Shown: positions 4,448 through 60,128 of the stretch, one piece after another | Numbering within the stretch: position 1 is the stretch's first letter | How the letters are laid out: every line of letters starts with the position of its first letter | Assembly (NCBI GenBank): GCA_030602715.1 | Contig: JAUVZD010000006.1 | Span: 1 to 64,000 of the forward strand | Direction of reading: 5' to 3' | DNA length: 64,000 nt | Source: Candidatus Coatesiibacteriota bacterium | GTDB taxonomy: Bacteria; RBG-13-66-14; B26-G2; JAUVZD01 | Notes under the pieces: generated by a model | Databases searched by the model: none | What the model saw: only the letters and a program-made list of their open reading frames with translations | Told to the model about the DNA's origin: nothing | Made by a program: the position numbers and the translations under genes

Positions 4448-6019
4448 ATGCGCATAACCTTCCTCTATCCCGACTTTCCCACCCGCTGGGACCCTCATGA
4501 GTCCACCTACGGCTACTACTCGGAGGGGCTGGCAAGCATCTCTGCGGTGCTAAAGCAAGCCGGACACCACACTCAACTTGTCCACCTCATCCATCCTCCT
4601 GTGGCTGGGGAGGTAACCAGTGCGGTGCGGGCGACGGAGCCGGACCTGTTGGCAATCACCTGTCGCACCACCATCTTCCCCGTCCTTCTGGAGGTGATGC
4701 GCCCCCTGCGCAAGGCTCTGCCCAATCTGCCGGTGGTAATCGGTGGCTACCATCCCACGCTGGACCCCCGGGAGGTGGCGGAGGAGGGAGCCGGGCTGTT
4801 TGATTATATCTGCGTGGGTGAGGGGGAGGGGGCGATGGAGGAGCTCGCTTCCGCTCTTGGGCGGGGAAGGGGCGGTGAGGATATAGATAATCTATGGGTG
4901 GCTCAGAGGGGTGGGGAGTGGAGGAGAAACCCGGTGCGACCGCTGATAGAGGAGCTGGACGGACTGCCCCTGCCGGACACAGAATTGTTTGACTACAGCA
5001 GTCTTTACGACCTGCGGATGAACACCGCCCCGGTGATGGTCTCCCGGGGTTGTCCCTTCCGCTGCACCTACTGTTGTAATCATCAACTGCGCCAGGTCTA
5101 TCCCAACCAGGGTAAGTATGTGCGCTTCAGAAGCCCCGGGCGGGCGATTCAGTATCTGCGCAATATCACAGACAGATACCCCCAGGTGCGCTATATCAAT
5201 TTTATGGATAATATACTGCCCTTAAGACCCCGCTGGATGAGGGAGTTTGTCGTAATGTATGCCCGGGATATCGCTCTGCCCTTTGTTTGTCGTTATCACG
5301 CCAAGGTATCGGATCCGCAGATGATTTATGAGCTGGCAGAGGCTGGTTGTTACCAGATTCATTTCGGAGTGGAGACTGGAAACGATTTTCTGCGCAACGA
5401 GATACTTGACCGCCGGGTGGAGAAGGAGACTATCATTGAGGCTTTTGATGCCTGCCATCGGGCGGGGATCGCCACCCTCTCATACAATATGGTCGGGTTG
5501 CCCCACGAGAACAAGGCGAAGTTTCTGGAGACGGTTAAGCTCAACGCCCGCCTGAACCCGGGCAGGAAGATTCTCTCCGTCTTCTTCCCCTATCCCAACA
5601 CCCGCTTGAAGGTTATAACCGAGGAGAGTGGTTTTCTGGCGGATAGATTTGACTTTGAGCACGAGCTATACCTTATTCAGCCCCAGTTCCAGCACCGGGA
5701 GGTCATCTTCTGTCAGCGCTATTTCCCCTTCCTGGTAAAGTGGTATAATCTACTGTGTCGTCTGCCGAACCTTCTAGGCTCGCCTCTTTCCAGGCTTACC
5801 GATAAGTTTGTGGTCAACCGAAATATCCCCCACGGCGCCCTCATCGCCATAGCCAACGGAGCCCAGTGGACCGTAGCGAGAACCAAGGGGCTTGTTGCCC
5901 GGCTATCGCCCAGGCTCTACACCTGGCTTCGTGGTCGGTTTATCGGAAAGCGCCGGGTTGAGGAGAGAGCCGGCTCCGGCCCCGAGGACCTGCCCACCGC
6001 CGAGGAGCGGACCATATAG
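4448..6019 (+). CDS. B12-binding-domain radical SAM enzyme
   Basis: Protein of 523 residues. The N-terminal 150 residues form a cobalamin-binding Rossmann domain (GGYHPTLDPREV, then the VGEGEG turn). The radical SAM domain begins at SRGCPFRCTYCC with Cys202, Cys206 and Cys209 for the 4Fe-4S cluster, followed by the conserved HFGVETGND region. The last 120 residues have no recognised domain. Members include BchE-, HpnJ- and methylase-type enzymes that act on lipids, porphyrins and antibiotics. Reaction and substrate are unknown. It lies directly after the PP-loop-like and phosphatidyltransferase genes with an 79-base gap, and may act on the same lipid product. The ATG at 4448 is the only good start. 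Confidence 0.85.
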   Translation: MRITFLYPDFPTRWDPHESTYGYYSEGLASISAVLKQAGHHTQLVHLIHPPVAGEVTSAVRATEPDLLAITCRTTIFPVLLEVMRPLRKALPNLPVVIGGYHPTLDPREVAEEGAGLFDYICVGEGEGAMEELASALGRGRGGEDIDNLWVAQRGGEWRRNPVRPLIEELDGLPLPDTELFDYSSLYDLRMNTAPVMVSRGCPFRCTYCCNHQLRQVYPNQGKYVRFRSPGRAIQYLRNITDRYPQVRYINFMDNILPLRPRWMREFVVMYARDIALPFVCRYHAKVSDPQMIYELAEAGCYQIHFGVETGNDFLRNEILDRRVEKETIIEAFDACHRAGIATLSYNMVGLPHENKAKFLETVKLNARLNPGRKILSVFFPYPNTRLKVITEESGFLADRFDFEHELYLIQPQFQHREVIFCQRYFPFLVKWYNLLCRLPNLLGSPLSRLTDKFVVNRNIPHGALIAIANGAQWTVARTKGLVARLSPRLYTWLRGRFIGKRRVEERAGSGPEDLPTAEERTI

Positions 6020-11593: not shown

Positions 11594-12379
11594 CTATGGT
11601 TTCCCTCGCTTTGCCACCTTCTTGGCGATAATCTGCAGTCCTTTGAGGGTGAAAAGGCGGTCCAGCACATCCACCCTCTCAGTGAGGGCGCAGATGGTCG
11701 GAGCCAGTCCGCCGGTGGCGATGACTGTAGCCCTTTCAGCCAACTCTTGCTCTACCAGCTTAACGATGCCCTCAAGGGAGGTGGAGGCTTGCAGGAGGAT
11801 ACCCGCTCGCAGTGAGTCGGCGGTGTTCTTTCCGATGACCTTGCCGGGGAAGGTCAGCTCCACCGGCGCCAGCCGGGAAGCCCGATGGAAGAGATCGGCG
11901 GCGGAGGTCTCCACCCCGGGGCAGATAATTCCTCCCAGGTATTCCCGCTCTCTGGAGATGACATCGTATGTGGTGGCGGTGCCGAAATCAACCACAATAG
12001 CGGGAAGCGGGTGTAGTTTGGCGGCGGCGGCCGCATTTACCAGGCGGTCGGGACCCACCTCCGAGGGATTGTCGTAGAGGACCTTTATGCCCATATCTGT
12101 ATTGTGGTTTACCACCAGTGGTTCAATGCCTAGTATGTGGGTTACAGCTTCGCTGACGGTTGGAGTCAGGCGGGGCACCACGGAACATAGAATAGCCATT
12201 TCCATGGAGGGGATTTCCGTCTCCCCTCCTTTCAGAATATTCTGTATGAGCAGGCGATATTCGTCGGGGGTCTTGTTCTGTTCCGTTGCCAGGCGATAGT
12301 GAGCGGTAACCTCGGCGCCTGAGAAAACCCCCAGCATTATGTTGGTGTTGCCGATGTCTACTGCTAAGAGCCTTTCCAC
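11594..12379 (-). CDS. coaX: Type III pantothenate kinase
   Basis: Catalyses ATP-dependent phosphorylation of pantothenate, the first step of CoA synthesis. The 261-residue protein shows the ASKHA-fold motifs: DIGNTN near the N-terminus (phosphate loop), GPDRLVNA, VVDFGTATTYDVI with the catalytic Asp, and GGIICPGV. Length fits the family. Its start overlaps the end of the glycosyltransferase gene upstream by 16 bases, so it is probably read from the glycan operon transcript, and it is ended by the terminator at 11525-11560. The assignment is firm. Confidence 0.95.
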   Translation of the reverse strand: MERLLAVDIGNTNIMLGVFSGAEVTAHYRLATEQNKTPDEYRLLIQNILKGGETEIPSMEMAILCSVVPRLTPTVSEAVTHILGIEPLVVNHNTDMGIKVLYDNPSEVGPDRLVNAAAAAKLHPLPAIVVDFGTATTYDVISREREYLGGIICPGVETSAADLFHRASRLAPVELTFPGKVIGKNTADSLRAGILLQASTSLEGIVKLVEQELAERATVIATGGLAPTICALTERVDVLDRLFTLKGLQIIAKKVAKRGKP

Positions 12380-13590
12380 GACTCCCTTCCTCCTTCTGAC
12401 ATAAACTCATCTATAATCGTCTCCAGGTGGGCGACGGACCTCTCCCAGCCCCAGTGGCGTTCTACGAATCTACGTCCGTGCTCACCCATCTGAACCCTCC
12501 GCCTGGGGTCTTTCAGCAGTTTGGCAAGCTCTTTGCTGAAGGTGGGAAGATGGCGGTCGGCGAGCAGGGCACCTTTGCAGTCCTTCAAGGTCTCTCGGAA
12601 CCCCCCTTCCCGCACCGCCAGGACAGGTCGCCCCACAGCTAGTGCTTCCAGGGGGATCAAGCCGAATGGCTCCACCACCTGACAGCAGAGCACCACCTCC
12701 GCCCCGGCGTAGGCATCACATAGCTGTCGGTCATTTAAGTTCATGCGAATGACCAGCTTCACATCCAGCTTTTGAGCCATTTTGCGCAGTCTTTCGCCCC
12801 ACCTCTCAAGCTCCAGGTTGGCGACGATGTGCAGAGGAAATTTGAGTTCCTTGGGAAGGGCGGCTATTGCTTCTAGAGCAAACCAGTGCCCCTTCTGGGC
12901 GGTGAGGGCGCCGACGGAAAGGAGATAGCCGTTCTCCTTTGGGGGTTTTTTGGGGGGGGCAAAAGCCGAAAAGTCGACGCCAAGGCTGGCTACGCGGGGG
13001 AAGATGCCGTATGTTTTTATGACTCCCTCCGCTGTGTGGTAGCTATTGGCGACAACCAGGTCTGCTGATGTCAATCCCTTATAATCCAGGTGCTTCCTTA
13101 TGAGGTTGTAGGGGAAGTTGATTATCTTTGAGAGCCTTTTTTTGAAACTGAGGGAGGTTTCTAAACCATAGAGTGGGGCTTCATACAGGCGACGGTGGGG
13201 TTCCTGACAGTAGTATATTTTGGGGAGGTTGCACAGGGAAAGGACCTGCGGTGCCTGGGTGCCCCAATGGGGGAAAGCGAGCAGAAGGTTGAAGCCCTCC
13301 TTTTCTACTGTTCTGGCGATGCGTTTCTCTGAGCGGCGATAACGGACCAGGTCTATCAGGCTTGCCAGATTCGATAGAAGAGGGAGTCTTTTCAAGGGGC
13401 GAGGGATTTTAATCGGCGTAGTGGGGATGGATATAGTTTTGACTTCAGGGCTTGTCGCTTGGGGGAGATTGGGTTCATCATAAGTTGTGAAGATGGTCAC
13501 CTGGTGCCTCTTTGCCAGGTATTTTGCCACCTTCGCCATGTGGCGGAAAGCGCCCCCGAATGGAGTGTGATGGAATATGGCGATCTTCAT
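12364..13590 (-). CDS. Glycosyltransferase family 4 type
   Basis: A 408-residue GT-B fold enzyme. The N-terminal half opens with KIAIFHHTPFGGAFRHMAKVAKYLA, shown by its start, typical of GT4 acceptor domains. The C-terminal half has LLSVGALTAQKGHWFALEA and then EPFGLIPLEALAVGRPV, the nucleotide-sugar binding E-x7-E type motif. It transfers a sugar from a nucleotide donor to a cell-surface glycan in the cytoplasm; donor and acceptor are not predictable. It sits downstream of a second glycosyltransferase and an O-antigen ligase-like gene on the same strand. Confidence 0.88.
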   Translation of the reverse strand: MKIAIFHHTPFGGAFRHMAKVAKYLAKRHQVTIFTTYDEPNLPQATSPEVKTISIPTTPIKIPRPLKRLPLLSNLASLIDLVRYRRSEKRIARTVEKEGFNLLLAFPHWGTQAPQVLSLCNLPKIYYCQEPHRRLYEAPLYGLETSLSFKKRLSKIINFPYNLIRKHLDYKGLTSADLVVANSYHTAEGVIKTYGIFPRVASLGVDFSAFAPPKKPPKENGYLLSVGALTAQKGHWFALEAIAALPKELKFPLHIVANLELERWGERLRKMAQKLDVKLVIRMNLNDRQLCDAYAGAEVVLCCQVVEPFGLIPLEALAVGRPVLAVREGGFRETLKDCKGALLADRHLPTFSKELAKLLKDPRRRVQMGEHGRRFVERHWGWERSVAHLETIIDEFMSEGGRESWKGS

Positions 13591-13631
13591 TTGTAAGAAT
13601 TTAATGATTTAGTTGTAATTAGGACTGATGT

Positions 13632-14882
13632 TTAAAACCTCTCCAACTCCTGTAATCTTTCATAGATTAACTCAAGTATGCGGTTGGTCCTCTTCTCCCA
13701 GGTATTTTCAAAGGCTAGGGCTATCCGCCTGCGCCTGGTTAGAGCGCTATCGGAGGTGAGCAGTTTCTCCGTCTCCCTTATGAAACCTGCAGAACCTTCA
13801 GGCATAGGAACCAGTTCACGGTAGCCGGCGATTGCCGACAGAGGTGTGGAAATTGTAGGTTTCCCGCTGGCGAGATATTCAAAAAACTTTATGGGAAAGC
13901 AGGAGTTGGTGTATTCGTTCATATTGTATGGGATGGCGCAGACATCAAATCCTTTGAGGTATGTGGGGAGTAATCTATATGGTCGGTATCCGAGGAGATG
14001 GATGTTGTTGATCCCGCTTAGAGCTTTTTGGGAATTGTCCTCTTTCTCTATGTTACCCACCAGCACCCAGTGCCAGCTTGGTTTCTTTCGGGCTATCTCA
14101 AGGATTAAGGGTATGTTCAGTTTGTATTCCGTCACCGCCCCAATAAAACCTATTCGTGGGTGGGGAATGTGCTCTAGGTCTTGGGGTTCATCCAGGTCCG
14201 ACTGTTGAGCCTGAGCGAAGAAGGGGGCATCAGCTACATTGGGCACCAGATGTGTATTGGGATTTCTCAAAGAGAGGTATTTATAGAGCGAGGGAGCTGT
14301 AGCGAAGACCACTTCCGCCCTCCTGAGCAATAGCTCCTCACCTAACTCAAGAACCTCTCTAGCTTCGGAGTTCTGTTTGTAGAAGGGGAATTCTCTAATG
14401 TTATCTACGCAGTCATAAGCCAATAGGTCATACGGTTGTTTGTGGATACTTGGGGTTATCTCCGGGGGATAGACCAGGGCGACGATGGGGGAGTCGCTGG
14501 CTCCCCTAATTTTGCGGGCAAAATGCAAGATGCGGGGGGCGTTCCACTTTGCATCTAGGTAGCGGTTGAGTCTGCGGATGATGTGTTTGTTCCTGAGGGG
14601 GAAGATAGCCGGCTGGTATATCCAAAGGTTCTTCCGGTCAAGAAAAATTGTATTGGGGAAGGGACCCTTTCCGGTTAAGAATAGGCGCAGGCGACCCCAA
14701 AGGTGATAACGACTGGGGACGTTCAGGATGGTGGGGTTTACGAAGATGATTTTATGGCCGGCTTTGGCAAAGTGGACTGCAAGGTGTTGTTTGTTGGTCC
14801 AATTCTGTTCATCCCAGACCTGGACGGAGAATATTACTATTATCAGGGGAGTTTGATTATGTGTCGCATTGCTTTTTTTCAT
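13632..14882 (-). CDS. Glycosyltransferase (TuaH-like GT-B)
   Basis: A 416-residue GT-B enzyme. The N-terminal domain (VQVWDEQNWTNKQHLAVHFA, then KIIFVNP) and the acceptor-domain Asp motif LLAYDCVDNIREFP resemble teichuronic-acid TuaH-type transferases. The donor domain reads PRIGFIGAVTEYKLNIPLI and then FPIKFFEYLASGKP. The ATG at 14882 overlaps the TGA of the upstream ligase gene (TGATG), which decides the start over an in-frame TTG three bases before it. This is coupled surface-glycan synthesis; the sugar is unknown. Confidence 0.82.
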   Translation of the reverse strand: MKKSNATHNQTPLIIVIFSVQVWDEQNWTNKQHLAVHFAKAGHKIIFVNPTILNVPSRYHLWGRLRLFLTGKGPFPNTIFLDRKNLWIYQPAIFPLRNKHIIRRLNRYLDAKWNAPRILHFARKIRGASDSPIVALVYPPEITPSIHKQPYDLLAYDCVDNIREFPFYKQNSEAREVLELGEELLLRRAEVVFATAPSLYKYLSLRNPNTHLVPNVADAPFFAQAQQSDLDEPQDLEHIPHPRIGFIGAVTEYKLNIPLILEIARKKPSWHWVLVGNIEKEDNSQKALSGINNIHLLGYRPYRLLPTYLKGFDVCAIPYNMNEYTNSCFPIKFFEYLASGKPTISTPLSAIAGYRELVPMPEGSAGFIRETEKLLTSDSALTRRRRIALAFENTWEKRTNRILELIYERLQELERF

Positions 14883-16378
14883 CAAGAATCGTTTTCTTTT
14901 CGGGCTAATTTTTCAGGAAGATTCTTTTTCTCTTGCTCTTTCTGGTAGAGCTTGAAAGCGACATACATGAGTCCCAATAAGATCCAGAAGATGGACTGTG
15001 GCTGGCTTCTTTTCATGGTGTTGTCCACAAGTTGATGGGGCATAAAAGCCAGGATACTGCCAAAGACACCCAAGGCTATCCGGGAGTATCTGGAGTCTTT
15101 GACCTGGCGTATAAATTGTAGGTTTTTTCGGAAAATAAGAAAGAGCAGTATGCAAAAGGGGATAAAATAGATTAATCCACCCTTTACCATCTGGTCGAAG
15201 ACCATACTGTTTAGGGCACTTGTTTTCCGAATGGGGAATTTGGAGACGACGAAGTAGCCGTATTGCTCCGGAGATTCAGCTACACCCCATCCCACTCCCA
15301 GGATGGGGTGGTGGATGATGTTATCCACATAACCAATATATTGGAGCACCCTTCCTCGCATGGAGGGGTCGGCCAGGAGCATTTCGTAGTTGAACAGAAA
15401 CATCTGTCGGGAGACTAGAGTGGTTGTGGTGGCTAACCCGGCAATTAATACCAATAACAGGATGATGATGATTATACTTTTCCCCCGAAACCTGAGCAGT
15501 AAAAGGATGAACAGGGAGAATAAAGTGCTGAAAAAACCGGCTCGGGAATAAGTGAATACCAGGCTGATTGTGGGGGGAACGACTATCAGTAGATAGAACA
15601 ACCTTTTCTTCCACTCTTTTGCCTCCAACGAATAGACAACCATTAAAGGTATGGTCAATTCAAAGAGTCCGGCAAGTATATTGGCGTTATGGAAAGTGGA
15701 TCCAATGCGATGGGAGACATATGTTGATAGTCGGACCATTTCTGGGGCAAATTTAAAATATCGGACCAAACCCATAAAGCTGACTATTAGGGTTAGGAGG
15801 AAGATGAATTTGATAAGTCTATCAATTTGGGAATGTTTTGATATTGCATTTATTACTATGAAAAAGATTAGGATACCGCTGGGGTAGGTGATCAGTTCTC
15901 TGAAGATGTTATACCAATAATTTCCCTCCCAGAAGGAAAGAGCGGCTTCAAAGATGGTAACAGATAGGAAGATTAACACTATCCAGTCAAACTCAGTCGC
16001 CTGAAAGATAGGTCTTTTGTGGGAGGTTTGATAAATGACAAAGGCTAAGAACACAATCAGTAGGACTATATGCACATTATCATAATTGTAAGAATGTTTA
16101 TAAAAGCACTCCGAACCCAGAAAAAAGACAAAGGCCAAAAAGAGATAGAATAGGTCCGATATCTCAAAGCGATATAGCATGAATAAAAGTGCTCCTAAAA
16201 ATATCAAAAAGACAACCGGCTTCCTACTACCTTCAATACAGGAGAGTGAGCTGTATGAGATTACAACTAATAGGATAATCAACCCCAAAGCCAGTGCCTG
16301 GCGCAGATTTCCAATGCGAAAGACCTTGGGAATGGGGTCTATGGGAGAATTTAACCTTTTAAATATTGAAGTTTTCAT
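14882..16378 (-). CDS. O-antigen ligase/polymerase (Wzy/WaaL family)
   Basis: Very hydrophobic 498-residue protein with about 12 membrane segments. A large periplasmic loop holds the O-antigen ligase domain: RIGSTFHNANILAGLFEL, then TYSRAGFFSTLFSLF, and GRVLQYIGYVDNIIHHPILG before VGWG. These are the usual conserved Arg and His regions. It polymerises or ligates lipid-linked oligosaccharide at the outer face of the inner membrane. It is first in a (-) operon, behind the promoter at 16402-16430, and is coupled to the next glycosyltransferase by a TGATG overlap. ATG 16378 is chosen; an in-frame TTG lies one codon earlier. Confidence 0.85.
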   Translation of the reverse strand: MKTSIFKRLNSPIDPIPKVFRIGNLRQALALGLIILLVVISYSSLSCIEGSRKPVVFLIFLGALLFMLYRFEISDLFYLFLAFVFFLGSECFYKHSYNYDNVHIVLLIVFLAFVIYQTSHKRPIFQATEFDWIVLIFLSVTIFEAALSFWEGNYWYNIFRELITYPSGILIFFIVINAISKHSQIDRLIKFIFLLTLIVSFMGLVRYFKFAPEMVRLSTYVSHRIGSTFHNANILAGLFELTIPLMVVYSLEAKEWKKRLFYLLIVVPPTISLVFTYSRAGFFSTLFSLFILLLLRFRGKSIIIIILLLVLIAGLATTTTLVSRQMFLFNYEMLLADPSMRGRVLQYIGYVDNIIHHPILGVGWGVAESPEQYGYFVVSKFPIRKTSALNSMVFDQMVKGGLIYFIPFCILLFLIFRKNLQFIRQVKDSRYSRIALGVFGSILAFMPHQLVDNTMKRSQPQSIFWILLGLMYVAFKLYQKEQEKKNLPEKLARKENDS

Positions 16379-16401
16379 CAATTGAGCCCCGTTTTTTCAA
16401 C

Positions 16402-16430
16402 AGTATAGGATAACGATCGTGGGGTGTCAA
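16402..16430 (-). promoter_or_regulatory. Sigma-70-type promoter for the glycan/coaX operon
   Basis: Minus strand TTGACA (16430-16425), 17-base spacer, TATACT (16407-16402). It ends about 24 bases before the ligase ATG. Confidence 0.7.
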
Positions 16431-16454
16431 TATTTTGAGAAATATAGTATAGAC

Positions 16455-17516
16455 TCACCGTTCTTCCAATGTGGATAGATAGATAGCCCGAATCCTGTCG
16501 GCGATCTCGTTCCAGCTGACCTCTCCAAGTTTCCTCCGTGCTTCCACGGCAATATGGGAACGACCCGTCTCCTTAACCCTTATCATCGCCTCGGCGAGAG
16601 TTCTCGCATCCCTACTCTCGTAGTAAACCCCCACACCTCCGAGTTGTTCGGTAAGACAGCCTTCGTCCGGGGCTACCGCCGGTTTCTGGAAGGTCAGGGC
16701 TAGGAGAGCTACCCCCGAAGTCGTTACCCGACGATAGGGCATAACAATGCAGTCGCATGCGGTCAAGTGAAGGGCAAGTTCTTCGTCAGTCAGGTATCCG
16801 AGATGCAACCTTATCCTTCTGTCCTCTCCAGCTAAATGGAGCAGTTTCTGGGCATATTCGTTGTTTATTGGTTTGCCGGCGATAAGCAAAATGTCCTCGC
16901 TTCCACAAGCGCGCTTAAAGGTGGGAATCAGCTCCTCCAACCCTTTGTAAACCCGTAGTTTTCCGATGTGGAGATATACATATCTATCTGCAGAAATCTT
17001 CAACCGCCTGCGGGCTTCTGCTTTGGATATCCTGAGACCTGACGGCTCCTGCAATGGGCCGTGGGCAATTACCTCTATCCGGCGTTTGTAGTTGGGAAAC
17101 TCAGCCCAAAATTCCCCCTTTGCCCTCTGGCAATGGGCTATTACCACACCGCTATGAGCTAGAACCTTTCTCATCGCAATCCGGTCCATAAAGGGTAGAT
17201 ACTCTTCGTGGGGCAGGAGGTTGTGCAGTGTATAGATAATCGGTATGCGCAACATCGCTGCCGAAGGAATGGCGACCAAGATGAAGTAAGCCCAAGCCAG
17301 AAGCGAGAGTAAGGTGCGAAAGAGGGTAGGGCGTAATTTGTAGTAAAACTCGGGCCAATGGATGTGCCAGATGCGGCGCCGCCCCAGGAAATGGATGGGC
17401 ATAGGCCAGAATCGCCTAAGGACTCTTACACCCTCCTTCTGCAAAGCGTCAGCCAGGAAGCGGGTATAGGCAGCCTCTTCACGCCGATAGAGCAGGACCT
17501 TGACCTCTTGTGCCAT
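16455..17516 (-). CDS. Glycosyltransferase family 4 type
   Basis: A 353-residue GT-B enzyme. The N-terminal part includes IWHIHWPEFYY and IIYTLHNLLPHE, typical of acceptor domains in exopolysaccharide transferases. The C-terminal domain has YLHIGKLRVYKGLEELI, ILLIAGKP and a closing VMPYRRVTTSGVALLAL with the donor-binding region. It probably adds a sugar to the surface glycan made by the neighbouring genes, although it ends 73 bases before the ligase gene's start and lies upstream of the operon promoter. No promoter of its own is evident. Confidence 0.85.
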   Translation of the reverse strand: MAQEVKVLLYRREEAAYTRFLADALQKEGVRVLRRFWPMPIHFLGRRRIWHIHWPEFYYKLRPTLFRTLLSLLAWAYFILVAIPSAAMLRIPIIYTLHNLLPHEEYLPFMDRIAMRKVLAHSGVVIAHCQRAKGEFWAEFPNYKRRIEVIAHGPLQEPSGLRISKAEARRRLKISADRYVYLHIGKLRVYKGLEELIPTFKRACGSEDILLIAGKPINNEYAQKLLHLAGEDRRIRLHLGYLTDEELALHLTACDCIVMPYRRVTTSGVALLALTFQKPAVAPDEGCLTEQLGGVGVYYESRDARTLAEAMIRVKETGRSHIAVEARRKLGEVSWNEIADRIRAIYLSTLEER

Positions 17517-17813: not shown

Positions 17814-19070
17814 TTAGGTCCCCAATTCCCATGATGACAGGTAGGCTTCCTGCTCCTTGGTAAGGGTGTCTATGGTCACATTCATTGACTCCAGCTTCAT
17901 CCGGGCTACGGTTTCGTCTATCGTTTTGGGGACTTTATATACCTTATTCTCCAGTTTCCCCTCCTGCTGTAGGAGGAAGCGAGTGCACAGCGCCTGGTTG
18001 GCGAAGGACATATCCATCACCATAGCCGGATGACCTTCTGCGGCGCTCAGGTTTACCAGCCGACCATCAGCAAGAAGGAAGATGCGCTTGCCATCTTTCA
18101 TGCTGAATTCGGTCACCACCCCTCGCAGGCGGCGAGCTTCCTTTGCCATCTTCTGCAAACCCTCCAGGTCCAGCTCTACATCAAAATGACCGGAGTTTGC
18201 GATTACCGCTCCATCCTTCATAGCCTTGAATTCCTCGGTGGTGATTACCTTGGTGCATCCAGTCAAGGTGACAAAGATATCTCCTATCTTTGCCGCTTCG
18301 GCGATGGGCATCACCTGGAATCCGTCCATAATCGCCTCTAAGGCTTTTTGGGGATTCACTTCGGTCACGATGACCTGAGCTCCCATCCCCTTTGCCCGCA
18401 TGGCGGTTCCCTTTCCGCACCATCCGTATCCACAGACGACGAATTTAGAGCCGGCAATGAGGTGATTGGTTGCCCGCAGGATTCCGTCTATGGTGGACTG
18501 ACCCGTGCCGTAGCGGTTGTCAAAGAGGTGCTTGGTCTCGGCGTCGTTTATGGCAATCACCGGAAAGAGCAAATCCCCCTTCTTATCCATAGAACGAAGA
18601 CGAATAACTCCAGTGGTGGTTTCCTCACAGCCCCCGAGCACATTGGAAGCCAGCTCCCTTTTTCTCTTGTGTATGGTGGAGATCAGGTCGGCGCCGTCGT
18701 CCATGGTCACCGTCGGCTCGATGGAGAGCACCGAATCTATATGCTTGTAGTAGTTTTTGTTGTCCTCCCCTTTTACGGCGAAAGTGGGAATCTCGTAGAT
18801 GATGGCTAGAGCTGCGGCGACATCGTCCTGGGTGGATAGGGGGTTTGAGGCACACAATGCAACTTCCGCTCCACCGTCTTTTAAAGTGCGCATCAGGTTG
18901 GCGGTCTCTGCGGTCACATGGAGACAGCAAGCGACCTTTGCTCCGGAAAGCGGTTTTTCCTTGGCGAAGTAACCTTGTATCCTTTTAAGAACCGGCATAT
19001 TTATAGCCGACCATTCAACTTTCTTCTGGCCAATACTTGCCAGTTTGGGGTCTTTTACATCGTAATCCAT
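17814..19070 (-). CDS. ahcY: Adenosylhomocysteinase
   Basis: Hydrolyses S-adenosylhomocysteine to adenosine and homocysteine in an NAD-dependent reaction, closing the SAM cycle. The 418-residue protein has [14 protein letters not shown], the substrate-binding [10 protein letters not shown] region, the NAD motif [20 protein letters not shown] and the C-terminal segment ending in KLESM. The ATG at 19070 follows AAGGAG. It is the last gene of the riboswitch-led methyl operon, 29 bases after metK. Homocysteine from this enzyme is the acceptor for the MetE-like protein encoded upstream, which closes a complete cycle within one gene set. The assignment is firm. Confidence 0.97.
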
Positions 19071-19099
19071 GGTTGCTCCTTAGGTGAGATGTGATAGGT

Positions 19100-20266
19100 C
19101 TATTTTAGCCCGGCGCCGTCTGCCAGGATCTTTGCCATATCGGTGCGCTCCCAGGTGAAGTCCTTCTCCTCACGACCGAAATGCCCGTAAACCGCCGTCT
19201 GACGATAGATGGGGCGCAGAAGGTTCAGGTGGTAGATGATGGCTTTGGGACGCAGGTCAAAGTGTTCCAGAATCAGTTTCTCAATTAGATCCTCATCAAC
19301 TTGGTTGGTGCCTTTGGTATTGATCAACAGAGAGACCGGTTGAGCAACACCTATGGCGTAGGCAATCTGCAGTTCACACTGCTTGGCAAGTCCTGCAGAC
19401 ACCACATTTTTGGCGACATAGCGAGCCATGTATGAAGCTGAACGGTCCACTTTTGAGGGGTCTTTGCCGGAGAAACAGCCTCCGCCGTGGCTTCCCTGAC
19501 CGCCATAGGTGTCCACGATTATCTTGCGACCGGTGAGACCGGTGTCCGCCTGGGGTCCGCCGATGGCAAAGCGACCGGTGGGATTGATGTGATACTTGGT
19601 CTCCTTATCCATCATATTTTCGGGTATGACTAGTTTGACGACGGACTCCATGACCCCTTCCACCACTTCATTGCGCTCCACATCCTCGGTGTGCTGGGCA
19701 GCGACGACCACCGCCTCAATCCGCTTGGGTTTGCCCCCGTTGTATTCAACGGTCACCTGGCTCTTACCGTCGGGGCGCAGGAACCAAAGCTCTCCGTTCT
19801 TCCGCACCTTGGCTAGCTGGCGAGTCAGCCTGTGCGCCAGGCTGATAGGAAGGGGCATCAGCTCCGGGGTCTCGTCGCAGGCGAAGCCGAACATCAACCC
19901 CTGGTCGCCGGCACCTTGTTCGTGGTCATCATATTCGTTGACCCCCAAGGCGATGTCCGGCGACTGCTCATCAATGGCGGTTACCACGGCAATGGAATGG
20001 TGGTCAAACCCCATTCTGGCGTCGGTGTAACCGATTTCCTCAACCATATTGCGCACGATTTTAGGGATGTCCACATAGGTCTTGGTGGTAATCTCTCCGG
20101 CGACGAAAGCCATCCCGGTGGTAACCATGGTTTCGCATGCCACCCGACTGTTGGGGTCATCGGTCAAGCAGGCGTCAAGCACCGAATCGGATATCTGGTC
20201 CGCTACCTTGTCCGGGTGCCCTTCAGTAACCGACTCGGAGGTGAAAAGGTGTTTCTTAGGAGCCAA
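19100..20266 (-). CDS. metK: S-adenosylmethionine synthetase
   Basis: Makes SAM from methionine and ATP. The 388-residue protein shows all family signatures: [16 protein letters not shown] at the N-terminus, [10 protein letters not shown], and [20 protein letters not shown]. The start is TTG at 20266, fixed by AAGGAGGAG about eight bases upstream. An in-frame alternative is not needed. It lies 50 bases downstream of cooC and before ahcY. Since SAM-I riboswitches commonly control metK, placing it at the end of a long operon led by such a switch is consistent with feedback by its own product. Confidence 0.97.
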
Positions 20267-20316
20267 TTTCCTCTCCTCCTTGGCTTTTTAACTCTTTTAT
20301 CTTAACATATTTTTTT

Positions 20317-21063
20317 TCAACTCTTAGCTATTGCCCAGTCAATTAATCGGTCCAAGCTCTCATCCACCTGCATGAGTATCTTCCCCCAGTCAGGGGGGCG
20401 GTCGGATATCCTGCCCTTTTCCAAGATCGGCAAACGGGGAATGGTAACATACCTGTCAAGTCCGCAGATTGTGGATATTTCCACTACGGCGTCGTCCGCT
20501 GACTGGTTCACCACCAGCGCCTTGTTAGCGATATCCAAGCCCAACTCTTCTGATAAGGCGATTATCCGCTTTGCGGACATCACCTCCATCCTCTCCGGTC
20601 GGCAGAGCACCGCCAGCAGATTTACCTTGAAGGGCAAACCCCGGGAGAGGTGTTCCAGCCCCGCTTCGTTATCCACCACCACCGAGCGATACTCCTCCGC
20701 CAGATTTCCCAAAAGGCGCCGGGTGAGGTCGTTCACTGCACAGTAACAGCCGGTGCCCTGCCCCCGCCCCATGGTCAGTATGTCGAACTCCTCCCCCTCG
20801 GCGAGGCACTGCAATATTCCCATCTGAGCCATCTGCGCCTTACCCTGAGGAAGGTTGCTACCCTTCAGGCTCTCCTTCAGCTCGCCGACGGTGCAGTCCG
20901 GCTCAAGGTTCATATACCAGCTCAAGGCACCATCGGGGTCGGCGTCCACCCCCAGTATGGGGCTTTCCCCCCGTTGTGTCAGACGATGGATGAGCAGGGC
21001 GGCAAGGGTGGATTTTCCTGAACCGCCTTTGCCGGCGACGGCGATGGTAATTGGTGTGGGCAT
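20317..21063 (-). CDS. CooC/AcsF-like nickel or corrinoid maturation ATPase
   Basis: MinD-superfamily ATPase of 248 residues. The deviant Walker A GKGGSGKS spans residues 11-18, VDADPDGALSW follows as the A' region, and GRGQGTGCYCAVND carries the CxC pair (Cys106, Cys108) that binds metal at the CooC dimer interface. CooC proteins insert nickel into CO dehydrogenase, and AcsF into acetyl-CoA synthase. Neither nickel enzyme is encoded in this window. Here the gene follows the MetE-like gene by 57 bases and precedes metK. It may mature CFeSP or a CODH/ACS encoded elsewhere. The family is firm; the client is unknown. Confidence 0.85.
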   Translation of the reverse strand: MPTPITIAVAGKGGSGKSTLAALLIHRLTQRGESPILGVDADPDGALSWYMNLEPDCTVGELKESLKGSNLPQGKAQMAQMGILQCLAEGEEFDILTMGRGQGTGCYCAVNDLTRRLLGNLAEEYRSVVVDNEAGLEHLSRGLPFKVNLLAVLCRPERMEVMSAKRIIALSEELGLDIANKALVVNQSADDAVVEISTICGLDRYVTIPRLPILEKGRISDRPPDWGKILMQVDESLDRLIDWAIAKS

Positions 21064-21120
21064 CGGTATGTTCTGTATTCCTCTTCTGGATGTGAGGAGT
21101 AAAAAATTAATGGTTATCGC

Positions 21121-22164
21121 TCACAACTCATACTTGTCCCTCATCCTCCGGGAAAGCTCGCCGGTGGCTTGGGCTATGGTCAGTGTCCGCTCAACGGTCT
21201 GCAAGCCCATACCGCAAGAGGGGGTTATCAGGCTTGCCTTTAGTAGTTGGGTGCGGTCTATACCCTTTTCGGTGAGCAGGGCAATGGTTTGCTCCAGCCG
21301 TTCCTCCAGCGTTTCCACCGTCTCCTTATCCATCTGCTCGTCAAAGGTGGGGACAATCCCCCAGGCTATCGTCCCCCCTCGGGCAAGAAAGTTATCCACC
21401 TCCTCTGCATAGAGAGCCAGGTTGATCGCATATTGATAGGCGTCCAGGGAGATGATGTCCACCCCGGCCTCCATCAGCAGGGACCAGTCGGTATTGCTAC
21501 AGCAGTGGGTGCCCCAGACGATACCCTCAACCTGGTATATCTCCGAGAGGCGGGAGACCACCTCATCGCGTTTAATGGCGAAGATGCTTGAGCCATAGGC
21601 GGAGAGATAGGGTTCATCCAGAAAGATGACCACTCGCTGGCATATCTTGGAGAGCAAGTCGGCTTGCCAGCGGGAGAGCATGATGACCATTTTGACCAGC
21701 ACATCGGAGAGGACCGGATGGTAGATGATGGGTTTGCGCTCTCGGTCGGTGATGGTCATGCCCAGGGTGAAGGGACCGGTGACCTGCCCTTTGATGGCGT
21801 AGATTTCGCCCAGGTGTTCAACTCTATCCAGCAGGGCATAGAGCCCCTGGCAGTAGTTCGGGCTTATGGCGAAGGAGCCGACATCATCGGCGAGAATCCG
21901 CTCGTAGAATTGCTCCACCTGGTGCATAAAGCTGCCGTCGGTATCCACAAAAAGCTTCTCATCTCGGATAGCCACCCCGGGTAGATGCTGGGAGTACATC
22001 ATGTTCATGTCCTCCAGCAGACTGCGCCGGGGCAGTTGCGGCCAGATGGGTATACGGTCAAAGTTCTCCAGGATGATGTCAAGCGACTCCTGGGAGTTGA
22101 GATGGGGGAAACTGCCAATGCCCGTGGCTTGCAGGTTCGCTCTGAATTTACTCTTTTCGGTCAA
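21121..22164 (-). CDS. Short MetE-like (core) methionine synthase, MesB-type candidate
   Basis: A 347-residue protein of the UROD/MetE TIM-barrel superfamily. It corresponds only to the catalytic C-terminal half of MetE and lacks the N-terminal domain that binds polyglutamyl folate. Zinc ligands can be seen as His220 and Cys222 in THCCSN and Cys317 in TPSCGMGLQT; LDEPYL (182-187) matches the MetE DEP motif. Short folate-independent synthases (MesA-MesD, core-MetE) are known, and those of the Dehalococcoides type take methyl from the CFeSP. Its place between RACo/acsCD and metK/ahcY supports that role: methyl-CFeSP plus homocysteine gives methionine. The start is TTG 22164, with only a weak GGGAAG upstream. 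An alternative is a methylcobamide methyltransferase (MtbA-like). Confidence 0.75.
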   Translation of the reverse strand: MTEKSKFRANLQATGIGSFPHLNSQESLDIILENFDRIPIWPQLPRRSLLEDMNMMYSQHLPGVAIRDEKLFVDTDGSFMHQVEQFYERILADDVGSFAISPNYCQGLYALLDRVEHLGEIYAIKGQVTGPFTLGMTITDRERKPIIYHPVLSDVLVKMVIMLSRWQADLLSKICQRVVIFLDEPYLSAYGSSIFAIKRDEVVSRLSEIYQVEGIVWGTHCCSNTDWSLLMEAGVDIISLDAYQYAINLALYAEEVDNFLARGGTIAWGIVPTFDEQMDKETVETLEERLEQTIALLTEKGIDRTQLLKASLITPSCGMGLQTVERTLTIAQATGELSRRMRDKYEL

Positions 22165-22411
22165 TTTTGTCTTCCCGGGTGGTATTTAATGATTAAAATC
22201 CTAGAGTGAAAAAGTCATCCGTAAATAAAACTTAGGAAAATCAAACCCCGTATTGTAGGGATGACTACAGCTCAGCAGTTTAAATATCAGCCGTATTGTC
22301 CGGGCAAGCTTCTCCTCAAATATGTTTCATTTATACATCCTATTGTGGATTAATATTAATGTGTTGCTATCTTTATTTGCCATCTCTTTTCTCATTATTA
22401 GTGCCTGAAAA
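22165..22411 (-). other. AT-rich gap inside the methyl operon
   Basis: A 247-base stretch between the RACo stop and the MetE-like start is the only large gap in an otherwise tight gene set. It is visibly richer in A and T than its neighbours. AGTCATCC and GGATGACT near its downstream end can pair across about 40 bases. No complete promoter, terminator or second riboswitch was recognised by eye. Confidence 0.4.
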
Positions 22412-23977
22412 TTACAAGTCCCATTTTAGGTCGGTGTGGGGCAGGAAACTGGAAGCGGTGAAATGTTCTATAAAGCGCTGGTCCTCGCTGAGGTCAATGA
22501 AGGCGGCGGAGCGAGAAAGCTCTAAAGCCTTTCTGCGGAAGTTCTCCGAGAGGATGGCGGAGCAGGCTCCCAGAAGGGAGCTGTTTTTCGGCTGGACTAC
22601 CTCTCCGGCAGGCAAGCGGGGAATTAGACCAATTCCCTTTGCCGCCTCCAGGTCAATTCGGCTTCCGAAGTTTCCGCTGAGATACAGCTTTCTCACCTCC
22701 GCCAAGCTCAAGCCGATGCGCTCCACTGCGGTCAGCAGACCTGCCTGGATCGCCGCTTTGGTGCGGATGATGTTTTTGATGTCCACCTCGGAGATGTAGA
22801 TGGGAAGACCTGAACCGCTCTCCTGGGAGTTGACCACGATGAAGGCGGTCCCCTCCGAGGCGGTTTTACGGAAACGGGAGGAACCGTCCGGGCGCATCCC
22901 GCCGTCCTGTTCTATAACCCCCAACTCTAGCAGACATGCCAGCAGTTGGATGAGACCGCTCCCGCAGATGCCCTCGGGCTTAGCACCTCCGATGGTCTGG
23001 TATGAGGGCTTCAGGTCGTCCTTCAGGCTGATGGAGCTTATCGCTCCCTTGCGGGCGGGAATACCGCAGGCGGTCTCCCCGCCCTCAAAAGCCGGACCGG
23101 CGGAGGTCGCCAGAGCCACCACAGCGCCGTCCACCACCGCAGATACCTCGCCGTTGGTTCCGCCGTCAATCAGCACCGCAGGTTCGTTCTCCCCCACTCG
23201 CAATGCCACCAGACCGGCGACGATATCCCCGCCGACATAGCCGGATATGGGAGGAAGGAGGTATGTTGGCGTGTCCCCAAATCCCAATATACCCATCTCA
23301 TCAGAGCGGAACTCCCCACCGACTGCGGAGTAGTCGGCGGCGGATTGGTATCTTATCCGGGTGGGAGGTTGATTGAGGAGGAAGTGAGCAAGAACGGTGT
23401 TGGCGGATACCGCAATTGCACCGATGTCTTGAGTTCTCAAGCCGGCATCCTGTAGCGCCCGCTGAGCGATATGGTTGATGCTATCCCTGAGCAGACGCAC
23501 CAGCCGATGATGCACCTCACGCTCCCGCTCGGCGGAGATGATGCGGGTGAGCACATCGGCGCCGAGGACGCGCTGGCGGTTGGGACCGGTGGCTCCTCCC
23601 AGCACCATCCCCCGCACCGCATCCAATACCGCGATCTCAATATTGCTGGTGCCCACATCTATAGCCAAAGCCCTCTCCGCACCGCAGAAGATTCCACCGT
23701 CGCGCCAGTTGGAGAGGTAATCATCCACCTGCGACAGCTCACCCTCAAGACCCTCGATAAGGACTACCTCCTGACCGGCTAGCGCTTTTTCTTGGCAGGC
23801 AAATTTGAGCTTGCCGTCCACCTCCACCCGACATTTTCCGCAAGTGCCCTCCCCCCCGCAGGGAGCCTCAATGAAAATACCCTTGCTTCTCGCCGCATCC
23901 AAGATGGTTCCCTGCGCTTCTGCGGAGATACGCTCCTCGCCCACCAGGAAGTGGAAGGTGTTCTTGCTCTCAGCCAA
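22412..23977 (-). CDS. Reductive activator of corrinoid protein (RACo-type)
   Basis: ATP-dependent enzyme that reduces inactive Co(II) CFeSP to the methyl-accepting Co(I) state. The N-terminal 2Fe-2S ferredoxin domain holds Cys40, Cys46, Cys49 and Cys61 (APCGGEGTCGKC, then FACQ). The large ASKHA-fold domain follows: AIDVGTSNIEIAVLD, VLIDGGTNGEV and GGETACGIPA. At 521 residues it is of the usual RACo/RamA-like size, though RACo rather than RamA because the cluster is at the N-terminus. I take TTG 23977, eight bases inside the end of acsC, because GGAGG sits seven bases upstream; a longer frame overlapping acsC further has no such support. The position next to acsC gives its partner. Confidence 0.9.
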   Translation of the reverse strand: MAESKNTFHFLVGEERISAEAQGTILDAARSKGIFIEAPCGGEGTCGKCRVEVDGKLKFACQEKALAGQEVVLIEGLEGELSQVDDYLSNWRDGGIFCGAERALAIDVGTSNIEIAVLDAVRGMVLGGATGPNRQRVLGADVLTRIISAEREREVHHRLVRLLRDSINHIAQRALQDAGLRTQDIGAIAVSANTVLAHFLLNQPPTRIRYQSAADYSAVGGEFRSDEMGILGFGDTPTYLLPPISGYVGGDIVAGLVALRVGENEPAVLIDGGTNGEVSAVVDGAVVALATSAGPAFEGGETACGIPARKGAISSISLKDDLKPSYQTIGGAKPEGICGSGLIQLLACLLELGVIEQDGGMRPDGSSRFRKTASEGTAFIVVNSQESGSGLPIYISEVDIKNIIRTKAAIQAGLLTAVERIGLSLAEVRKLYLSGNFGSRIDLEAAKGIGLIPRLPAGEVVQPKNSSLLGACSAILSENFRRKALELSRSAAFIDLSEDQRFIEHFTASSFLPHTDLKWDL

Positions 23978-25319
23978 GGTGAACCTCCTTGGGCGAGGAG
24001 TAGGAGTGCAGGAAGGCTGGCAGGCGAGAGGAATCTTTGGGTCCCACAACAATCTCCCAACCGCACTCCTCAGCAAGCTCCCCGGATATTTTGGAGACCA
24101 GACCGGGGATTATTAGCCGATGGTGGTTGACCTTCTCCTCTATGCCACAGCTCTCCAGCAGTTTCCTGACCCGGGTGGGGGTCAGTTTGCCGGAGGCGTA
24201 GGCGGTTAGCACCGACTGTCCCTCCACATCAACGATAAGCAGGTGGGAGGGCACCGAGCTAGCCTCAATATCCCCGGAGACCAGGAAGTAGGTGAGCGAG
24301 AAGTTGGTGGTCAGGATTACCGGGGAGTCCTTGCCGGGGGCGCCAAGAGGATAGACGCCAGGGGGGATCTGGATGGGCTTCTGCGGGTCTGCATAGAGCT
24401 CCGAGCGCAGAACCATTAGCGGAGAGAGGGCTGAAACGTCAAGTGAATCCATGACCACGGCGTTGGCGTAGCGGCAGACCGCCAGAGCGTTCTTGATACT
24501 CTGTTCTGCAGGGCTTTCGCCGGGGAAATAATAGAGTGTGGGTCGGTTCAGGGTCTGCTCTTTTCCAACAATAGCCAGCCTGCGTAAGTGGGCGAGCATC
24601 CGCAGGACACTTCCCGACTGCCAATCCCCGCCGAGGGAGAGCACTATATCCTCCATGCCCGCATCTACTGCGGTCTCTATCTCCTGTGCCACTTGTTTCA
24701 GGCTCTGCCCCCATCTGAAGGGGATGAGCAGGGGTTGACCCAGCCGGGCGACGGAAGTCAGGTCCCGGGGATTTGTGGGTGCGAGAAGGGTGCGGTGCTC
24801 TTTGGGGATGATTTCGGACGCCTTCTTCAGTTCATCACTCCCACCGACTACCGCCAGGGGCGGGCGGTTTTTGCTGACTAGAAACTCAATTATGTCCAGG
24901 TCTTGCTTGCCCTCAATCTCCACCAGGAACCCCTGAGGGGCGAGCACCTCCCCAGCCCGCTCCACAACCGCATTCTGGAGGGCGCCGAGAGCCTCCTTTG
25001 CTCCCCGGGTTCCCGAAGAGCTGGAAAGCCGAAGGAGGATGGCGGTGGGGCTGTGGAAGCGCTTGTCGTGGCGGAATAGGACCTCCTCACCACCGAGGGG
25101 GATAGGGTTTTCCTCATATCCAAGCTCCACCTTGCGCATGGGTAGAGTGGTGGAAGCGCCTAAAAAGGCTAAGGCTTCCTTTGTAAGATAAGGACAGTCG
25201 GCGAGCTCAGCCTCCCCAGCTATCAGTATCATGGCGAAGCCCAAGCAGGTGGCTACCGCACACTCCCCGCAGTTCTTCTGGGGCAGGTGCTTGTATATCT
25301 CCAGGGCGGACAGTGCCAT
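23970..25319 (-). CDS. acsC: Corrinoid iron-sulfur protein, large subunit (CdhE/AcsC)
   Basis: Large subunit of the CFeSP of the Wood-Ljungdahl pathway; it carries the 4Fe-4S cluster and the cobamide that moves methyl groups. The N-terminal cluster motif is present with Cys17, Cys20, Cys25 and Cys42 (NCGECAVATC, then ADCPY). A TIM-barrel follows (LSLGGDWQ), then the C-terminal corrinoid-binding domain (VILTTNFSLTYFLVSGDIE, given in part). The length of 449 residues is normal. The ATG at 25319 shares one base with the acsD stop (TGATG), so I reject the upstream in-frame extension to 25502. It is coupled to acsD before it and RACo after it. No acsB, acsA or acsE is in this window. Confidence 0.93.
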   Translation of the reverse strand: MALSALEIYKHLPQKNCGECAVATCLGFAMILIAGEAELADCPYLTKEALAFLGASTTLPMRKVELGYEENPIPLGGEEVLFRHDKRFHSPTAILLRLSSSSGTRGAKEALGALQNAVVERAGEVLAPQGFLVEIEGKQDLDIIEFLVSKNRPPLAVVGGSDELKKASEIIPKEHRTLLAPTNPRDLTSVARLGQPLLIPFRWGQSLKQVAQEIETAVDAGMEDIVLSLGGDWQSGSVLRMLAHLRRLAIVGKEQTLNRPTLYYFPGESPAEQSIKNALAVCRYANAVVMDSLDVSALSPLMVLRSELYADPQKPIQIPPGVYPLGAPGKDSPVILTTNFSLTYFLVSGDIEASSVPSHLLIVDVEGQSVLTAYASGKLTPTRVRKLLESCGIEEKVNHHRLIIPGLVSKISGELAEECGWEIVVGPKDSSRLPAFLHSYSSPKEVHLG

Positions 25320-26269
25320 CAGACCGCCTCCTCGGGCTCTGCATTTATCTCCCTCACTGCCTCGCGGACATAAGCAAAGGCTTGCGGGTGAAGCAGGGCG
25401 CATGCATCGGCACCGGCGACGATACCGCAGATGGCGGTCTGGGCTTCCCACAGGGGAGCGCGCTTTTCGGGGTCGCCTAAAGGACCTTGCCCGCTGTAGC
25501 ATTCCCGACCGGACCAGGCTTCGCCGGAGTTGACCAGTATCAGCCCCGAAGTCGCCTCATCACCGGCCAGGGCGCCCAGCCGCAGGCGCTCAATGACCGA
25601 GAAGGTGTATTGTGCGCCATAGCCCAGCCCCCCGGTAAGCGGGTCGTGAATGATGCGCTCATAGTGGATACCGTTTGAGTGCAGGAGGATATTCAGCTGT
25701 TTTGCCAGGTTGATGTCCATCGGCGACTGGGCGAGTACCCCTAAGTCGTAAGCCTGTGCCGCGGCTGCATAGGTGCGATAGGTGTCCTCCTCGGCGCGCC
25801 CCAGCCAATCCTTCCCCCCTCTTAGCGCCCCGGCAACGGCGTTAAGCAAGGTATCCAGCAGACGTTTCTCCGCAGAAAGCTCAACGATAAGGGGAAGGTC
25901 GGTCAGCTGGGCAAGCTCGCTTAGCAGTCCCACCGCGCCCTCTATCTCATTGGAGCTCAAGCTTTCGCCCTCCTCAATTTCAAAGGAGAGGGGGACGAAG
26001 AGGAAGTCAGCGCCGACGCCGACAGCCTCCTGAGCGTATTTTAGAGGAACGTAGTTCTCCCCGCCCAGCTCAACGGTTAGGGTGGGGGGTAGACCCCCCA
26101 GGTGGGGAAGGACGGTCAGCCCCAAAGCGACCTTGAGCGGTGAGCTTTCAAAGAGGGGCATGGCGGTGCGCCCACCCAGGCGAAGTTCGCCTAGAGCTAC
26201 CTCCAGAGTGGGGGTGGCTTCCGCTGAAGGTAAAGTGTAACCTTCTGTTATCTCTTCCCAGGATGGCAT
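25319..26269 (-). CDS. acsD: Corrinoid iron-sulfur protein, small subunit (CdhD/AcsD)
   Basis: Small subunit of the CFeSP, a TIM barrel that pairs with AcsC to hold the corrinoid. The 316-residue protein has the typical SPMDINLAKQLN, IIHDPLTGGLGYG and TFSVIERLRLGALAGDE blocks. The ATG at 26269 lies 16 bases after the lipoprotein gene's stop, and the stop overlaps the acsC start. In acetogens acsD/acsC usually accompany acsE and acsB; here they stand with methionine-cycle genes instead. The assignment is firm from the conserved blocks and from its partner. Confidence 0.93.
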   Translation of the reverse strand: MPSWEEITEGYTLPSAEATPTLEVALGELRLGGRTAMPLFESSPLKVALGLTVLPHLGGLPPTLTVELGGENYVPLKYAQEAVGVGADFLFVPLSFEIEEGESLSSNEIEGAVGLLSELAQLTDLPLIVELSAEKRLLDTLLNAVAGALRGGKDWLGRAEEDTYRTYAAAAQAYDLGVLAQSPMDINLAKQLNILLHSNGIHYERIIHDPLTGGLGYGAQYTFSVIERLRLGALAGDEATSGLILVNSGEAWSGRECYSGQGPLGDPEKRAPLWEAQTAICGIVAGADACALLHPQAFAYVREAVREINAEPEEAV

Positions 26270-26285
26270 GGCACTCTTCGGGCTT

Positions 26286-26711
26286 TTAAGGGTTGTCAGT
26301 CTCGTTTATTTGATATATCCGGTATCCATCGTTCTCAAAGACCATATAAAATTCAATGCCTCCCCCGTCTTCAAAGGCGGTGGTGAGAACGAAATATTCT
26401 CCCTCTATGCGCAATCCCTCGGCGCTGAGGTTGAAGAATAACTCGGCGGCATCCTCGGGGATGGGGTCTTCTTCCATTGCTTTTTCCAGCTCCTCAACGG
26501 TGGCGATGTCCCGCCGAAAGTCGCTTTCCACCGAGAAGGAGTCAAGCAATGCCTGAGCGTCCATAAGTAACGACGCCTGTACAAAAGTCTCCAGGGTATC
26601 CCAGGGGGTGGCGTAGCTGGGGACGAAGGGCTCCTCTGCAGGCTCCTTGCAGGTGGCAAGGAGCAGAACCAGGGAAAGTGCTATCAGTAATTTTCTATGA
26701 TTTATTTTCAT
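26286..26711 (-). CDS. Small lipoprotein at the head of the methyl operon
   Basis: Not recognised. A lipoprotein of 141 residues with signal MKINHRKLLIALSLVLLL and lipobox LLATC. The mature part (TPWDTLETFVQASLLMDAQALLDSFS, in part) resembles small NTF2-like or DUF4878-type exported domains, with a C-terminal strand region GIEFYMVFENDGYRIYQI. I use the ATG at 26711 and not a TTG at 26732, because the lipoprotein signal starts there. It is the first gene after the SAM riboswitch and is only 16 bases ahead of acsD. Why an exported lipoprotein leads this cytoplasmic pathway is unclear. Confidence 0.78.
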   Translation of the reverse strand: MKINHRKLLIALSLVLLLATCKEPAEEPFVPSYATPWDTLETFVQASLLMDAQALLDSFSVESDFRRDIATVEELEKAMEEDPIPEDAAELFFNLSAEGLRIEGEYFVLTTAFEDGGGIEFYMVFENDGYRIYQINETDNP

Positions 26712-26799
26712 TTGAGATGCTCTCTGAGTCAAGGATGTTTTTCCGATTTAATGAATCTGATGTTTCAAGTTGGGTTGTTATGGAGATGGACAGGGGCTG

Positions 26800-26834
26800 A
26801 TAAGAACAGCCCACCCTCTTTTGTGAAAGGTGGG
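26800..26834 (-). terminator. Possible riboswitch expression platform (weak terminator)
   Basis: After the SAM aptamer, CCCACC (26834-26829) can pair with GGTGGG (26815-26810), followed by CTGTTCTTA, a poor U-tract. TTCTTATC (26806-26799) copies the aptamer's P1 5' strand and could compete for its P1 3' strand (GATGAG). This is an alternative helix of the kind used in S-box switches. The pairing is seen; the mechanism is inferred. Confidence 0.4.
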
Positions 26835-26860
26835 GTGAGATTTGAAGGCCGGTTACCGGA

Positions 26861-26994
26861 CCCCTCATCTCCCAGGGGAAAACTCCACCCCTGCAGGAAT
26901 TGGCACCTTAAAGGTTGATTCAGGTTGATGAATATCCAACCTTTGGTTGCCAAGGCTTCTTAGGGCCTGTCCCTCAGCCTTTCTGGATAAGAGG
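26861..26994 (-). promoter_or_regulatory. SAM-I (S-box) riboswitch aptamer
   Basis: On the minus strand the S-box core is plain: CCTCTTATC, AGAAAGGCTGAGGGAC, AGGCCC, GAAGCC, TTGGCAACC, AAGGTGCCAATTCC and GATGAGGGG. P1 pairs 26994-26986 with 26869-26861 over nine positions including wobbles. P2 uses AGGCT/AGCCT, P3 uses TTGGC-ACC/GGT-GCCAA extended by AAAGGTTG/CAACCTTT, and P4 is CAGGGG/CCCCTG. It binds SAM and normally shuts off expression. A consensus promoter ends about ten bases upstream. It precedes the lipoprotein-acsDC-RACo-MetE-like-cooC-metK-ahcY gene set. Confidence 0.93.
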
Positions 26995-27003
26995 TTAACG
27001 GCT

Positions 27004-27032
27004 AATTTAGCAGAAAGTAAAGGTTTTGTCAA
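27004..27032 (-). promoter_or_regulatory. Sigma-70-type promoter of the SAM-riboswitch operon
   Basis: Minus strand TTGACA (27032-27027), 17-base spacer, TAAATT (27009-27004). The expected start of transcription is near 26997, just before the aptamer. It is divergent from the dedA promoter at 27114-27142. Confidence 0.78.
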
Positions 27033-58509: not shown

Positions 58510-58523
58510 AGAAATATAGTGGT

Positions 58524-60116: not shown

Positions 60117-60128
60117 ATTACAACTTTT

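Follow-up and report, generated by a model that had tools for sequence, protein, structure and literature searches.

The 64,000-nucleotide stretch analyzed here (positions 1 to 64,000 of contig JAUVZD010000006.1, assembly GCA_030602715.1; hereafter the window) comes from a Candidatus Coatesiibacteriota bacterium and carries a gene set that probably represents a methionine pathway of the Dehalococcoides type, gathered on one strand and led by a SAM-I riboswitch, an RNA element responding to S-adenosylmethionine (SAM). All features are on the minus strand, where the order is the SAM-I aptamer, a putative lipoprotein gene, acsD and acsC, which encode the two subunits of the corrinoid iron-sulfur protein (CFeSP), a gene for its activator RACo, mesB, a CooC-like gene, metK, and ahcY. 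Gene content, gene order, the aptamer, the active-site residues and the missing alternative routes are direct observations from the sequence. A first-pass annotation, made from the letters of the window, had named these parts, their order and their strand, and all of these parts are present as it gave them. The most likely methyl route runs from acetyl-CoA through AcsB, CFeSP and MesB to methionine, for which we infer both the acetyl-CoA source and the transfer from CFeSP to MesB. AcsB, encoded elsewhere, would cleave acetyl-CoA in a decarbonylase role and pass the methyl group to CFeSP (AcsCD); RACo would re-reduce the corrinoid of oxidized CFeSP; MesB would use this methyl group to methylate homocysteine bound to zinc; MetK would make SAM; and AhcY would turn S-adenosylhomocysteine (SAH) back into homocysteine.

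The gene assigned as mesB (21121..22164) encodes a predicted folate-independent core methionine synthase of 347 aa that was not recognized by Pfam, NCBIfam or PDB sequence searches, so that a comparison of folds was needed. An AlphaFold model built from 50 input sequences (mean pLDDT 95) matched the catalytic half of MetE (PDB ID: 3l7r, residues 396-743) with a Z score of 25.4 over 288 residues and a root mean square deviation of 3.0, and the single-domain synthase MesD (PDB ID: 3rpd) with a Z score of 25.3, both scores lying well above those of unrelated barrels. The protein keeps the catalytic fold of MetE (residues about 385-743), lacks the N-terminal folate domain, and co-occurs with AcsC and AcsD in the genome. 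Relatives were collected with a two-sequence profile that included a distant homolog from a plasmid of Desulfosarcina ovata; the profile matched hundreds of sequences in named genomes, 80 of which were kept. The zinc ligands H220, C222, D241 and C317 are retained in 79 of the 81 aligned rows, the other two being gapped there. This HCDC set, with Asp replacing the Glu of MetE, has been described for MesB (PMC7857596, PMC7005905), and the window protein is 36-45% identical to MesB of Dehalococcoidia and others. By its ligand residues and modeled fold the short MetE-like protein is assigned as MesB, with a predicted catalytic activity. The distant Desulfosarcina ovata relative (L006:7983-9011) is annotated as hypothetical and lies on a mobilizable plasmid, away from CFeSP genes; it aligns poorly in the region of the third cysteine ligand. 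Scans of viral contigs with MesB, AcsD and AcsC gave no match.

The remaining members of the set were assigned by family and structure searches. The CFeSP small subunit gene, acsD (25319..26269), matches PF03599 and PDB entry 4djd_D (E 1.6e-39), and acsC (23970..25319), for the large subunit with its Fe-S domain, scores 391 bits against NF003195 (cut-off 306) and matches 2h9a_A (E 4.7e-85). The longest open reading frame (ORF) would start acsC at 25502, a choice that was rejected because homology begins at ATG 25319, which overlaps the acsD stop by 1 base. The RACo-type reductive activator of CFeSP (22412..23977) has the 2Fe-2S (PF00111), middle (PF17651) and ASKHA (PF14574) domains, all over the Pfam cut-off, and matches 3zyy (E 1e-76); against NCBIfam AcsV it scores 343 bits, below the cut-off of 800. 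Its start is TTG 23977, which overlaps the end of acsC and has AAGGAGG, a strong Shine-Dalgarno sequence, just upstream. The SAM-cycle genes are metK (19100..20266; methionine adenosyltransferase, TIGR01034, 596 bits, cut-off 309) and ahcY (17814..19070; adenosylhomocysteinase, TIGR00936, 638 bits, cut-off 498). The putative small lipoprotein gene (26286..26732), with an uncertain start codon and a weak lipobox (LLATC), had no match in Pfam or NCBIfam and no relative among the 80 MesB loci. The first-pass annotation described mostly small gaps or overlaps, which is accurate for the set overall, where spacings are 0-60 bp, but not for the interval between the RACo gene and mesB (22165..22411): this is 247 bp long and AT-rich (GC ∼37% versus 55-60% around it), and is a candidate break in the operon.

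The assembly spans 2.31 Mb in 18 contigs (completeness 100), and this gene set holds its only members of the CFeSP family. Genome-wide profile searches gave no match for prismane/carbon monoxide dehydrogenase (CODH), the MetE catalytic domain, the MetH homocysteine domain, methylenetetrahydrofolate reductase (MTHFR; MetF), or the MtaC/MetH-type corrinoid domain (B12-binding_2), and each of these searches matched its own family in several control genomes. AcsE is likewise absent from the genome, because the sole pterin-binding protein is dihydropteroate-synthase-like (DHPS). The first-pass annotation had proposed that CFeSP serves methionine synthesis rather than carbon fixation, and had held that a metH or metE elsewhere would count against this; with neither gene found genome-wide, and CODH, MTHFR, AcsE and the corrinoid domain missing too, the proposal is well supported by gene content. 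It had also seen no acsB in the window and called for a search beyond it. We found acsB on contig 4, and this supplies the methyl source that was lacking: the product scores 840 bits against an equivalog cut-off of 800, aligns over its full length with acetyl-CoA synthase (ACS) structures and keeps the A-cluster Cys motifs. At L089:9098-12139 (contig 4), acsB starts 3 bp after a PfkB nucleoside-kinase-like gene, whose product has 3kd6 as its best solved relative and shares 39% identity with a PfkB protein from one Chloroflexota mesB operon. This kinase could be a nucleoside kinase that clears the adenosine made by AhcY, a role that would tie acsB to the same SAM cycle. The CooC-like P-loop ATPase of the window (20317..21063; 3kje CooC, E 1e-11) carries a deviant Walker A P-loop (GKGGSGKST) and a CxC motif (GCYC). 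Since the genome has no CODH to mature, it most likely loads nickel into AcsB; AcsF, a homolog of the CooC-like protein, is a reported nickel loader for the A-cluster.

The closest precedent is Dehalococcoides mccartyi, in which metK, ahcY and core-MetE (mesB) form one operon (Deobald et al. 2020, PMC7005905), and for which a route has been argued in which the methyl group of acetate passes by way of acetyl-CoA, AcsB, CFeSP and MesB to methionine, with release of CO (PMC7005905, PMC7857596). Both organisms have a MesB with the HCDC zinc site, mesB together with metK and ahcY, and AcsB and CFeSP without CODH, AcsE, MetF, MetE or MetH. This match to the gene pattern behind the D. mccartyi route makes acetyl-CoA, via AcsB, the most likely origin of the methyl group here. 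The window set differs in adding acsD, acsC, the RACo gene, the CooC-like gene and a leading SAM-I aptamer, and its host lies outside Chloroflexota. The papers on the D. mccartyi pathway mention no riboswitch (PMC7005905, PMC7857596).

The SAM-I (S-box) aptamer occupies 26862..26993 and scores 91.2 bits against RF00162 (Rfam cut-off 44.4, E 1.8e-20). It is the only copy above the cut-off in the genome; a second match, on contig 3, was set aside as chance (27 bits, within a thiC-like ORF). Just upstream is a promoter-like TTGACA-17-TAAATT (27004..27032) with a 10/12 consensus match, which is weak evidence by itself, as 15 such sites were seen where 8.4 were expected by chance. A possible expression platform (26800..26861) consists of a hairpin that competes with P1, followed by a terminator-like hairpin (CCCACC..GGGUGGG). 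In SAM-I aptamers, SAM binding usually lowers expression, and in SAM-I (S-box) regulons the aptamer stands before methionine and SAM genes, as it does in the window. When SAM is plentiful, the aptamer would be expected to reduce transcription, at least across lipoprotein-acsD-acsC-RACo, and we predict that this repression probably extends to the whole gene set. Whether a single SAM-I switch sets CFeSP, its activator, the methionine synthase, the SAM synthetase and the SAH hydrolase jointly, with AcsB and CFeSP as a dedicated methyl-supply arm, is in our estimate evenly balanced.

We used four SAM-I copies to make a covariance model and scanned the 80 MesB loci with it. SAM-I was detected in 12 loci, all from Chloroflexota (L021, L029, L050, L064, L059, L058, L051, L032, L024, L015, L027 and L062), always on the strand of the gene, at a distance of 1.1-2.9 kb before mesB. 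The model itself included three of these loci; the other nine are independent, at 66-100 bits. A thirteenth match (L044, 23.8 bits) was discarded as weak and inside mesB. Within the available stretches, the first gene of the 12 loci is mtnA, and ahcY occurs in nine and metK in six. The typical arrangement, SAM-I-mtnA-(mtnP)-mesB-pfkB-ahcY-metK (L021, L029, L050, L064 and others), resembles the window in its same-strand upstream SAM-I and in having ahcY and metK after mesB. These sets open with methylthioadenosine-salvage genes, whereas the window set does not; they place ahcY before metK, the reverse of the window order; and the stretches covered hold no acsC, acsD, RACo or cooC, all of which are present in the window. 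A protein that by eye resembles an archaeal-type methionine adenosyltransferase is encoded beside or instead of MetK in L021 (7148-8362) and also in L024, L051 and L062. The second kind of neighborhood is found in Wood-Ljungdahl clusters, both of methanogens (PMC7857596) and in L007, L038, L057 and L073 of the present loci, in which mesB lies near CFeSP genes, acsB and/or cooC, as in the window, but with CODH, without nearby metK or ahcY and without a SAM-I match. In four loci outside Chloroflexota (L007, L038, L047 and L073), mesB adjoins cooC and CODH/ACS genes, and no SAM-I match was found. The window thus combines both kinds, SAM-I-led mesB sets and mesB neighborhoods of the CFeSP/cooC type; none of the 80 other MesB loci has CFeSP and RACo genes in a riboswitch-led set.

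The first-pass annotation held that such an operon had not been described, which overstates the case in view of the D. mccartyi mesB-metK-ahcY operon (PMC7005905) and the SAM-I aptamers upstream of mesB in the 12 Chloroflexota loci. Neither the pathway nor the mesB-metK-ahcY operon is new, whereas the gene arrangement and the host lineage look so. We found no report of CFeSP or RACo genes behind a SAM-I aptamer in a literature search that excluded most subscription journals, and as far as the searches reach, a SAM-I-led set that takes in both CFeSP and RACo genes is new. Within the same limited search, SAM-I before the Chloroflexota mesB operons, forming a SAM-responsive methylthioadenosine-salvage/methionine operon, also appears to be unreported.

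Several points weigh against a single SAM-controlled set fed by acetyl-CoA. The U tract of the terminator-like hairpin is poor, and this hairpin is present in both predicted folds; the gap between the RACo gene and mesB could hold a promoter and split the transcription unit; no SAM-I switch precedes acsB, whose product brings the methyl group into the pathway; the absences come from six-frame profile searches of an assembly in 18 contigs; and the literature surveyed reports no biochemical demonstration of transfer from CFeSP to MesB for any organism. Because of the gap and the ambiguous expression platform, SAM control of the genes from mesB to ahcY is putative. It is conceivable, if rather doubtful, that there are two transcription units, in which case the riboswitch would govern lipoprotein-acsD-acsC-RACo, mesB-cooC-metK-ahcY would have its own promoter in the gap, and SAM would limit the methyl supply (CFeSP and its activator) and not the cycle enzymes. 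The length and low GC content of the gap, so unlike the spacings elsewhere in the set, favor this division, as does a weak hairpin with a T-rich tail at 22262-22245. However, a promoter scan found no promoter-like site on the minus strand of the gap, and mesB belongs to the SAM-I-led sets of Chloroflexota, frequently together with ahcY and metK. A search of the gap for a hidden regulatory RNA returned no Rfam match.

The remaining alternatives concern the methyl group. CFeSP might receive it not from acetyl-CoA but from another, unrecognized source, such as a methyltransferase that uses methylated compounds; acsB does lie on a separate contig and outside the reach of the SAM-I switch, and the searches covered only part of the methyltransferase families. 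We consider this improbable, given that the genome lacks the MtaC/MetH-type corrinoid domain and that acsB, whose known methyl partner is CFeSP, is present. Slightly less probable again is an ordinary Wood-Ljungdahl fixation pathway, or a remnant of one, in which AcsB and CFeSP, both encoded by intact genes, form acetyl-CoA from CO supplied externally, MesB being a side user, since without CODH, AcsE and MTHFR neither CO2-derived CO nor a methyl group from methyltetrahydrofolate reaches AcsB, and the CFeSP genes sit with mesB, metK and ahcY and not with acsB.

Other members of the host's 14-genome phylum have no MesB and no full CFeSP. In the MesB tree the window protein is on a long branch outside a well-supported Chloroflexota clade; a recent transfer of mesB from Chloroflexota is unsupported on account of this position. 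Five relatives from the same class (L091, L092, L093, L094 and L095), which have no MesB, encode HgcA-like corrinoid proteins with the motif NVWCAAG; L091 has NVWCAAGK, the form seen in HgcA of mercury methylation. Elsewhere in the window, a B12-binding radical SAM protein (4448-6019) probably uses cobalamin and SAM as well. Immediately after the methionine set, on its downstream side, come glycosyltransferase and O-antigen-ligase-like genes (12364-17516), and genes for a Wzi-like protein and a sugar dehydrogenase are found at 57559-61418; surface polysaccharide genes share the region with the methionine set.

The genome encodes its sole CFeSP together with mesB, the activator and the SAM-cycle genes, and the folate routes tested for are missing; the locus therefore offers independent support, from outside Chloroflexota, for the proposal that MesB takes its methyl group directly from CFeSP, and its compact gene set is suited to an in vitro test of that transfer. 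The recurring SAM-I aptamers before Chloroflexota mesB operons provide a second, testable regulatory link. In the window, a corrinoid protein of carbon fixation is under the apparent control of the methylation cofactor and, if our reading is true, a Wood-Ljungdahl corrinoid protein would be under riboswitch feedback by SAM.

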